From assembly GCA_030692765.1 (NCBI GenBank), contig JAUYUB010000016.1, positions 1 through 64,000 on the forward strand: DNA of 64,000 nt, read 5' to 3'. The position numbers and the translations under genes are program-made. Every line of letters begins with the position of its first letter. The stretch's first letter is position 1. Origin of the DNA: Sulfuricurvum sp. (GTDB taxonomy: Bacteria > Campylobacterota > Campylobacteria > Campylobacterales > Sulfurimonadaceae). Of the stretch, positions 51,987-55,615 are shown one piece after another. Under the pieces are notes generated by a model. The model worked only from the letters and a program-made list of their open reading frames with translations. It did not search any database and was not told the origin of the DNA.

Positions 51987-52012
51987 CCGTTCGCCCTGAG
52001 CTAGTCGAAGGG
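51987..52012. repeat. Dispersed intergenic repeat-like motif
   Basis: CCGTTCGCCCTGAGCTAGTC followed by GAAGGG. From memory this closely matches a short repeat (read in reverse, CCCTTCGAC-x-GGCTCAGGGCGAACGG) scattered between genes of many bacterial genomes. Marks the left edge of the accessory region. Only one copy is in this window. Confidence 0.5.
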
Positions 52013-52110
52013 TGTACGGATTCATAGTTGACAAGCTCATTACGAGTGAAACACTCCTTGTCATCCTATACTATACTCCCATACAAAAGTATTGTTAATT
52101 TATAAAATAG

Positions 52111-52354
52111 ATGATACAGTTACTGTATGAAAAAGTTCCAGAAAACGAACATAATATTTCTAATCTTCATGAAAAATATAAAGAGTTATATTCTGCAGAT
52201 GAGTTCAATATAAAAATTCCATTTACTAAAGAAGTAGAGTATATTGGTTTTGGTAAAGCAGAAATTGCAAAGCTGTCCTGTTGGAAATAAAGGTGAAAAT
52301 TACAGCCCAATAACTAAGTATGAAATAGGTATATTGGAATTTTATAAAAGGTAA
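52111..52354 (+). pseudogene. Frameshifted orphan ORF
   Basis: ATG at 52111 opens a 59-residue frame (MIQLLYEKVPENEHNISNL...) that stops at 52288-52290. Just before, around 52274, a second frame takes over and reads PVGNKGENYSPITKYEIGIL to a TAA at 52352-52354. Joined, they give about 80 residues that read like one protein with a one-base frame error. It is very AT-rich and unlike its neighbours. No family recognised. A short 5' stretch may also be missing. Its end lies 39 bases before the attC-like hairpin, the spacing seen in integron cassettes. Confidence 0.5.
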
Positions 52355-52393
52355 TTTTTAGATTTTGGATGTAAAATATATCCATGTGAAGAT

Positions 52394-52464
52394 GTTTAAC
52401 AAAGCAAAGGAGACCAATCAAAAACCCTCAGGCAGTTTTTGATTGCTCATTTCAAACGTTCGGC
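52394..52464. other. attC-like (integron recombination) site
   Basis: 71 bases with attC-type organisation. The left end GTTTAAC (52394-52400, R'' pattern RYYYAAC) faces GTTCGGC (52458-52464), sharing the essential AAC/GTT core. Five-base unpaired spacers follow (AAAGC and CAAAC). Then AAAGGAG (52406-52412) pairs with CTCATTT (52446-52452) apart from one mismatched base. Finally a perfect 10-base stem AATCAAAAAC/GTTTTTGATT closes on a 9-base loop. The TTCAAACGTT right end is typical of attC. A single site, no integrase nearby. Confidence 0.5.
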
Positions 52465-52506
52465 GTTACGGGACACGGTTTCCGTTGGCTCGTAGAAGGA
52501 GACATT

Positions 52507-53535
52507 ATGGCATCGACCCAAGAGTACGATCAAGTGGCAAGTGACATGCGTCGGTCAAGTGACCAGTCAGACGGTAACTTAAATGCAAGAGAGTTGATTC
52601 GGTACGCTACGCTCGCAGCCTCTAGCCACAACACACAGCCGTGGAAGTTCCGTATCCGAAAAGACAAGATTACGATCTTGCCAGATTTCTTGCGGTGCTG
52701 CCCGGTTGTTGATCCAGATGACAGTCATCTCTTCAAAAGCCTAGGCTGCGCGGCCGAGAATCTTGTTCATGCAGCTGCGGCACAGGGCTTTTCAGCTGAG
52801 GTTCGATTCGATGCCGATGAAAATGGCATTAATATTTTTTTGAAAAGTGACGTCAAGGCATGTGCGACGGATCTTTATCGGGCAATACCCAAACGGCAGT
52901 GTGTGAAGGCGGCCTATGATGGCAGCCCAATTGGAGTGACGGAGCTTGAGAAATTGAAAAGGGCGGGTGAAGGACCATTTGTCCGTACCATCATGTTATC
53001 GTCAGATATGCAGAAGAGTGCAGTGATTGATTATGTAACGCGAGGAAATATCGCCCAGTTGAGTGATCGGGCGTTCCGAAAGGAACTTATTGCTTGGATT
53101 CGTTTCAATATTGGCGAGGCAATGCGTATGGGCGACGGCTTGGCCGGGCGCATCAGTGGCCAACCGGCATTGCCGAGGTGGTTGGCAAAATTGATTATGG
53201 GGGTAGTGCTGACACCAAAGGGGCAAGCCGATACAGATGCCACGAATATTAGGAGTTCAACCGGTATCGCGGTCTTTGTATCAAGCCACAACAATAAAGC
53301 CGCTTGGGTTGAAGTTGGGCGCGCATATGAGCGCTTCGCCCTGCAAGCGACTGCACTTAATATTTGTACTGCCTTCATCAACCAGCCAATCGAAGTGAGC
53401 GAGTTACGCCCGCAGTTCGAATCATGGTTGAAGCTTGAAGGAGAATACGCGCTTCTAATGGTTCGCTTCGGCCATGGTCCCGTGGCACCTTTTAGTCTGC
53501 GTCGTCCAATTGATGATGTGATTATTGAAGACTGA
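52507..53535 (+). CDS. Acg-type FMN-binding nitroreductase-fold protein, probably acquired
   Basis: 342 residues. The segment YATLAASSHNTQPWKFRI near 33-50 is the FMN-binding signature of the Acg/nitroreductase group, and the fold appears duplicated, as in mycobacterial Acg. That protein lacks clear reductase activity and may store flavin. It is more GC-rich than flanking genes and uses GCG, GGC and CGC codons more freely, suggesting transfer. GAAGGAGA is the ribosome site. It follows the attC-like site by 42 bases, so it could be a captured cassette, but no matching attC follows it. Confidence 0.75.
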   Translation: MASTQEYDQVASDMRRSSDQSDGNLNARELIRYATLAASSHNTQPWKFRIRKDKITILPDFLRCCPVVDPDDSHLFKSLGCAAENLVHAAAAQGFSAEVRFDADENGINIFLKSDVKACATDLYRAIPKRQCVKAAYDGSPIGVTELEKLKRAGEGPFVRTIMLSSDMQKSAVIDYVTRGNIAQLSDRAFRKELIAWIRFNIGEAMRMGDGLAGRISGQPALPRWLAKLIMGVVLTPKGQADTDATNIRSSTGIAVFVSSHNNKAAWVEVGRAYERFALQATALNICTAFINQPIEVSELRPQFESWLKLEGEYALLMVRFGHGPVAPFSLRRPIDDVIIED

Positions 53536-53634
53536 CCAATAGGATTAGCAAATTACAGCTATGCATAGTGACACCGACTCACTTGAAATGTGGGAATATA
53601 TAAGGCCGCTCTTCAAAATCACTCTAACCTAAAA

Positions 53635-53676
53635 TTGACACAACCAGTCTTTATTCGGTATCATATTAAGACCGAA
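53635..53676 (+). promoter_or_regulatory. Promoter and palindromic operator of toxin-antitoxin pair 1
   Basis: TTGACA at 53635-53640 and TATCAT at 53659-53664, spacer 18. TTCGGT (53654-53659) and ACCGAA (53671-53676) form an inverted repeat straddling the -10 box, the usual place for antitoxin autorepression. The antitoxin ATG follows 11 bases later with GAAGGAG. Confidence 0.65.
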
Positions 53677-53686
53677 GGAGTTACTA

Positions 53687-53959
53687 ATGCAGTTAATGAA
53701 TGATATTAAACCCATTACCTATTTAAAGAGTCGAGCGGCAGATGTACTGAAACATATTAATGAAACGCATAGACCTATGATCATCACCCAAAACGGTGAA
53801 GCCAAGGCGGTTATTCAAGATCCGCAAAGTTATGAAGATATGAAAAATGCTATTTCACTTTTAAAACTGCTGTCGTTTGCCGAAGAAGATATAAAAAATG
53901 GAAATGTGCAGAGCGAAGAGGATGTATTTCGTTCGGTAGAAGAATTACTGAAAAAATGA
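53687..53959 (+). CDS. Phd/YefM-family antitoxin
   Basis: 90 residues. N-terminal DNA-binding and dimerisation part (ITYLKSRAADVLKHINETHRPMIITQNGEAKAVI, recognised by PMIITQNGEAKAV), then a charged helical tail (EEDIKNGNVQSEEDVF) that should wrap the toxin. Overlaps the toxin gene by ATGA. The palindrome at the promoter supports autoregulation. Confidence 0.88.
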   Translation: MQLMNDIKPITYLKSRAADVLKHINETHRPMIITQNGEAKAVIQDPQSYEDMKNAISLLKLLSFAEEDIKNGNVQSEEDVFRSVEELLKK

Positions 53960-54288
53960 CTAAAACCTATAAACTACTATGGACGCTCAATGCTAAAAGT
54001 GACCTTTTGAATATTATTGAATATATTAAAAAAGATAGTCCGAGCAATGCAAATGATATTTATTTAAAAATTAGAGAAGAAGCCCATTCCAGTAATTTTT
54101 TCCCTTTAAAAGGGAGAGTTGTACCAGAACTCCAGAAAGAAGGGATAACGCTGTATAGAGAGGTTATCGCGTCTCCTTGGAGGATTATCTACAAAGTCGG
54201 CAATGACACGGTGTACATCATGGCTATTTTAGACTCAAGACAAAATGTTGAAGAGATATTGCTGCAAAAGCTTTTAAAAAAATCTTGA
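53956..54288 (+). CDS. RelE/ParE-family toxin
   Basis: 110 residues. ParE/RelE pattern: WTLNAKSDLLNIIEYI at the start, LYREVIASPWRIIYKV in the middle and VYIMAILDSRQNVEEIL near the end. A ParE-like gyrase poison is somewhat more likely than a ribosome-dependent RNase from the R-x-I-Y-K-V / I-L-x-x-R-Q pattern, but this cannot be settled by eye. Coupled to its antitoxin. Confidence 0.85.
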   Translation: MTKTYKLLWTLNAKSDLLNIIEYIKKDSPSNANDIYLKIREEAHSSNFFPLKGRVVPELQKEGITLYREVIASPWRIIYKVGNDTVYIMAILDSRQNVEEILLQKLLKKS

Positions 54289-54337
54289 GCTAAAGCGGTG
54301 TCGGAATAAATACATAATTTAAACAAAAAGAGAAACA

Positions 54338-54439
54338 TTGCACACATTTCAAATTTCAGAGCCACTGTTAGAAAATTTTAGAAATGACAAATTAAGTGAT
54401 GTAAGAGAAAAAGGGGACAGGCTACTCTTTAATATATAA
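54338..54439 (+). pseudogene. Truncated paralogue of the gene at 55160
   Basis: TTG at 54338 gives MHTFQISEPLLENFRNDKLSD, which aligns to MHTFQIAESVLDAYKNYKLSD at the start of the intact gene. Similarity ends near 54408, and the frame closes at 54439. The leader before both copies is also shared (ATAATTTAAACAAAAAGAGAA at 54314-54334 and 55136-55156). So a duplicated gene start is left on the near side of toxin-antitoxin pair 2. The junction runs into AAAAAGGGGACAGGCTACTC. Confidence 0.75.
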
Positions 54440-55099: not shown

Positions 55100-55159
55100 A
55101 GAATAGGGTCAAGTGATCCCCAAGTCATTAATTAGATAATTTAAACAAAAAGAGAATCA

Positions 55160-55615
55160 GTGCACACATTTCAGATTGCAGAGTCAGTATTAGATGCGTA
55201 TAAAAATTATAAACTGAGTGATGAAAGAATCAACTTTTTAACAACACAGGCCAATGAGCAGCTCGCAGAAATGGCTCAAAACAAAGAGCTCTATGACAGT
55301 TTTTTAAAAAAAGTGAATGCACCCCAAAAGATAGACAATATTATTCTTTGGATACTGCTGATGTCAAATGAAACAATCGGTAGTAAATACATCAGAGAGT
55401 TCAAAAAAGATTTTAGAAAATTTATCCCAGTCAGTGACCTGGCTGATTTATTACTCTACGCTATTCATCTAAAGAAACTCAAAAACATTGAGTTGGACGG
55501 ATTTGACTATTTATTTGAATACGAAGAAGAGGGGATGGAAGTGATGGATCAATATGCTTTTACAAACGTCTTGCTCTACATCCAAAGTTCAAAAGAAGTC
55601 CAAATGGAGTTTTAA
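55160..55615 (+). CDS. Helical protein of unknown function (intact copy)
   Basis: 151 residues from a GTG at 55160, acidic in its second half and predicted all-helical; no signal or membrane segment. I do not recognise a family. A truncated relative lies at 54338, before toxin-antitoxin pair 2, with a shared leader. Two copies in an accessory region hint at association with mobile or defence-type DNA, but nothing in the sequence shows function. Confidence 0.65.
   Translation: MHTFQIAESVLDAYKNYKLSDERINFLTTQANEQLAEMAQNKELYDSFLKKVNAPQKIDNIILWILLMSNETIGSKYIREFKKDFRKFIPVSDLADLLLYAIHLKKLKNIELDGFDYLFEYEEEGMEVMDQYAFTNVLLYIQSSKEVQMEF

Follow-up and report, generated by a model that had tools for sequence, protein, structure and literature searches.

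Integron gene cassettes are known from many bacterial lineages, and Campylobacterota are listed among the carriers of integrons (PMC8618304). The architecture of their recombination sites (attC) and the bottom-strand preference have been described (PMC11641012), and a functional integron integrase (IntI) can mobilise cassettes in trans (PMC12444791). For CALIN elements, in which attC sites stand without an integrase, three origins have been discussed, namely IntI acting in trans, ready-made arrival and loss of the integron (PMC8618304). IntegronFinder 2.0 reports a CALIN by default from two sites upwards, and true positives can occur among those with a single site (PMC9024848). In Sulfurimonas autotrophica, an In0 and a CALIN have been tabulated (PMC10295459). 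We found no paper in the open-access literature on integrons of Sulfuricurvum, the genus studied here.

We analysed a 64,000-nucleotide stretch of a Sulfuricurvum genome (hereafter the window), in which an earlier note had read a solitary attC-like site from the letters alone. A base-by-base feature check recovered the R''/R' core, the unpaired spacers, the L boxes and the terminal stem exactly where that note had placed them (Table 1).

Table 1. Features of the attC locus downstream of mutS2, in window coordinates.
Feature	Position	Strand	Remarks
Remnant of two-gene module: upstream region and first codons	52067-52135	+	88-95% identity; module intact in G004, G016, G024, G033
First-cassette remnant: 5'-truncated, frame-broken pseudogene and its attC	52136-52458	+	
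attC site	52394-52464	+	base-by-base feature check; R2 63.1 bits; predicted cleavage G52458^T52459
R'' box GTTTAAC	52394-52400	+	
Spacer AAAGC	52401-52405	+	
L'' box AAAGGAG	52406-52412	+	
Stem arm 1 CAATCAAAAA	52415-52424	+	perfect pairing with TTTTTGATTG
Stem arm 2 TTTTTGATTG	52436-52445	+	
L' box CTCATTT	52446-52452	+	single G:A mismatch against L''
Spacer CAAAC	52453-52457	+	
R' box GTTCGGC	52458-52464	+	
Second gene cassette (Acg oxidoreductase)	52459-53577	+	TTCGGC to ACCGA, the start of its own R'', the rest of which is lost
Acg-family FMN-binding oxidoreductase gene, intact, 342 aa	52507-53535	+	NF047509, PF00881
Phd/YefM antitoxin and RelE/ParE toxin genes	53687-54288	+	right flank common to G004, G012 from 53611

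On folding alone, the hairpin is modestly above chance and weak evidence for an attC: 5 of 200 dinucleotide shuffles fold as well or better on the top strand, and 2 of 200 on the bottom strand. Homology was assessed with two covariance models. A blastn search of plasmids returned copies of the attC with 84-91% identity on four Aliarcobacter/Arcobacter plasmids, and a search of related genomes showed the same attC sequence in several genomes of the window's genus. The first model, R1, was built from twelve such sites and used for fetching. One of the twelve is the window site, so a match to it follows from the way R1 was made, and only the second model, R2, was counted as evidence. R2 was built on 47 aligned sites from eleven integron loci in the phylum, all of them outside the window's genus (one locus, L205, has an integrase fragment only, and in another, L208, the integrase scores below the cut-off). 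Its training sites were fetched via R1, in which the window contributes one of twelve rows, and its independence is thus good, if not perfect.

The stem of the attC family covaries. In the 47-site alignment, 93.1% of the stem cells are paired against 78.2% in shuffled alignments, and two-sided changes occupy 112 cells against 43. The covariation score is 0.326, compared with 0.086 after shuffling and at most 0.166 for slid versions of the structure, with the caveat that related sequences may beat shuffles even where no structure exists. R2 recovers the window site at 63.1 bits, with roughly calibrated E-values (as for R1) of 7e-13 over the 64-kb window and 2.4e-11 over the genome; the next-best match in the window has an E-value of 0.14. 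This score is far above noise, and not the below-threshold score that the earlier note had named as counter-evidence. Nor did the same hairpin turn up in many genomes without any cassettes, the other such outcome: the related sites lie in cassette arrays, many of them adjoining integrases.

The modest free-energy excess over shuffles and the lack of a match to 52394-52464 in Rfam, at gathering and relaxed thresholds, would suit a chance look-alike of an attC, for instance a terminator or dispersed repeat that forms an ordinary stem-loop between genes. This reading is extremely improbable and in practice refuted: R2, trained without the window's genus, finds the hairpin, which argues against chance, its relatives sit in arrays beside IntI, cassette boundaries fall at the cleavage point, and no T-run follows 3' of the stem. 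With the AAC...GTT core, L boxes, unpaired spacers, terminal stem and covariance score all in place, 52394-52464 is, as judged from its sequence, a genuine attC site, and the attC organisation proposed for it is borne out.

Sites of this family were found by R1 in 65 of the 397 genomes examined from the phylum, and 34 of the 397 carry an integron integrase above the TIGR02249 cut-off. One example is locus L200, in which an IntI gene lies at about 9.4-10.3 kb and the opposite strand carries five attC sites at 5.1-8.0 kb; L201, L202, L206, L207 and L208 resemble it and are ordinary integrons. Within the window's genus, 12 genomes have sites, and one locus (L101, G016:C15) is a small array of four attC sites in the same orientation within about 4.3 kb. 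In the closed genomes of a sister genus, g27 (G240, G335 and G404; L218, L219), 9-12 family sites are listed at several chromosomal places; among the matches listed, G240 and G335 show no integrase at E 1e-50, and another genome of that genus, G351, has a complete integron. The Aliarcobacter plasmids pCNAC48 and pAFAEC (L110, L111) bear two and four family sites, respectively, and plasmids of this type are a possible vehicle for cassettes.

The absence of an integrase, which the earlier note had reported for the window, extends to the whole genome, a draft of 28 contigs: none of its five TIGR02249 matches exceeds 59 bits, the cut-off being 265. Among 41 genomes of the genus, many of the compared genomes being drafts as well, no IntI was found at 1e-40. 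The locus is accordingly no complete integron with IntI near an array, a configuration for which the same search was positive in the 34 phylum genomes. It shares the lack of an integrase with CALINs, and it falls short of their default of at least two attC sites, as the window site is the sole match in the genome for both R1 and R2. The description of a single attC lacking an integrase therefore holds at genome scale for this attC family.

The R' box departs from the family. Across the phylum it is nearly always GTTA, and in the window it reads GTTCGGC. Since the R'' box and the hairpin are of the phylum's attC family and TTCGGC opens a foreign cassette, which begins in the same way in other phyla, the mismatch between the R boxes marks a junction of two different cassettes, as had been proposed.

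The foreign part carries an oxidoreductase gene that scores 265 bits with NF047509 (NCBIfam cut-off 199), matches PF00881 and is preceded by a ribosome-binding-like site, GAAGGAG. Its G+C content is 50.2%, against 42.2% for the window. A scan of genome contigs placed its close relatives in a Nitrospiraceae bacterium (L006; 83% protein identity), Azoarcus, Arsukibacterium, an unclassified gammaproteobacterium and Rhodocyclaceae; no phage match was found for it. DNA identity to the loci of other phyla is 73-85% and confined to about 52457-53577, that is, to the gene and its flanks. The match starts at 52457 in L006, at 52452 in L009 and at 52455 in L010, which is 0-7 bases from the predicted cleavage point, as expected of a cassette boundary from which the next cassette runs on from G^TT, and it stops at 53577 in all three. 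In L006, attC-like sequence that ends in GCGTTCGGC precedes the block, and behind the block comes its own attC, which starts with GCCGAAC, the reverse complement of GTTCGGC; in L009 an attC likewise lies 3' of the block. These homology bounds, together with the cassette's own attC in L006 and L009, mark 52459-53577 as a true gene cassette. At least two loci in other phyla thus keep that attC intact, whereas the window copy has lost it after ACCGA. Remains of a second attC were sought at 53577-53611 with R2, filters off, and no match was obtained. The oxidoreductase gene, if expressed, would probably be read from a local promoter, given that no integron platform with a Pc promoter was found.

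The cassette to which the surviving attC itself belongs is now a pseudogene, truncated and with its frame broken. The segment 52135-52396 contains two pieces of reading frame, which are collinear and have an internal stop, and the last stop codon (52397-52399) lies within R''. No parent was found in 228 genomes of the family or on plasmids. Upstream lies the remnant of a two-gene module, which we take to be BrnT/BrnA-like from inspection by eye. This segment, repeated in five relatives, was considered as an attI and rejected, as in four of them it matches the 5' flank and opening codons of a module that is intact. Directly after mutS2, at 51987-52045, there is an intergenic repeat around GCCCTGAGCTAGTCGAAGGGTG, which recurs in many copies, with 75-100% identity, both at other places in this genome and in the majority of those of the genus.

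The comparison with related genomes that had been suggested for an empty site yielded three loci downstream of mutS2 that have no cassettes. In G021, the mutS2 match ends at 281 and the next toxin-antitoxin pair begins at 303, the two almost adjoining; in G031 and G023, about 330-360 bp of unrelated DNA lie 3' of mutS2. Two other relatives carry the right flank of the window. In G004, the toxin-antitoxin pair is 88.5% identical to 53611-54281, and between it and mutS2 lie the two-gene module, a GNAT gene ending in an attC of the window-site family, an HNH gene and half an attC. In G012, other genes precede the same pair, and no attC was found there. The locus thus varies in content among relatives between common flanks.

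Further to the right, 54307-54406 is a 100-base partial copy, with 80% identity, of 55129-55228, the start region of an ORF at 55160. The copy lies upstream of a second toxin-antitoxin pair. The start region occurs in one place only in G031, G010 and G023, from which we infer a local duplication in the island. Of the 52.0-55.6 kb that had been taken as inserted DNA, about 52.14-53.58 kb stands as cassette DNA; the toxin-antitoxin pairs and the downstream ORF are instead local background or arrived by another route.

Taken together, the locus is probably a single attC joining two integron cassettes in a genome that lacks an integron integrase, with the joining by IntI having occurred in trans or before arrival. 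An attC of the phylum's family, at the end of a pseudogene cassette, is joined at its R' cleavage point to an Acg cassette also found in other phyla. To make this junction, the IntI tyrosine recombinase would have acted at G^TT via the attC bottom strand in its folded form, either in trans from another replicon or before the cassettes came already joined, for example on a plasmid. Decay has since affected one end of each cassette. Because deletions have removed the left end of the first cassette and the right end of the second, the original insertion point, and whether whole cassettes were inserted exactly, can no longer be read. In principle, the attC that remains could still accept cassettes should an IntI enter the cell.

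A different origin would make the attC all that remains of a complete integron once present at this locus, its integrase and attI deleted. Loss of intI is among the proposed origins of CALINs (PMC8618304), and integrases co-occur with this attC family in the same taxonomic family; however, not one of the 41 genus genomes yielded an IntI, and the relatives' locus holds either no cassettes or cassettes lacking an integrase, which makes this origin unlikely. Homologous recombination in the flanks, with mutS2 on one side and the toxin-antitoxin genes on the other, is a possible though less favoured route, by which cassettes would have been moved in or exchanged and an integrase would have been active only in another organism. 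The flanks are common to genomes with different contents, and the partial ORF repeat at 54307-54406 points to rearrangement. Such recombination accounts for arrival on the chromosome but not for the cassette boundaries, and it is compatible with the preferred reading of a junction made by IntI in trans or before arrival. It is doubtful that the DNA behind mutS2 serves as a hotspot for cassette landing in an integrase-less genus, with delivery and exchange purely by foreign integrases in trans.

The locus suggests that a lone attC, skipped by default CALIN detection, can be genuine. It documents one cassette as common to distant phyla and adds orphan sites, persisting in a genus in which no integrase was found, to an attC family that spans the phylum. 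It thereby offers a case in which the spread and decay of cassettes can be traced.

When comparing the window site with the phylum's integrons that possess IntI (L200, L202, L206 and L207), the site architecture is alike, with TAAC, a spacer, an L box, an AT-rich stem, CAAAC or a similar spacer, and GTT. Those loci combine an IntI gene with several attC sites per array; the window has a single site and no IntI. Insertion at attG sites (Loot et al. 2024, as cited in PMC12444791) likewise places cassettes at a chromosomal position outside an integron platform, a comparison limited by the deletion in the window of the end that would show an attG. The window shares with sedentary integrons the use of one family of attC sites, and with CALINs a genuine attC and cassettes in a genome without an integrase. 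It differs from the default CALIN in having one attC against a threshold of two (PMC9024848) and in that both cassettes are damaged. The window site is thus a CALIN-like remnant reduced to a single decaying attC, the leftover of a known gene-capture system and not a new one.
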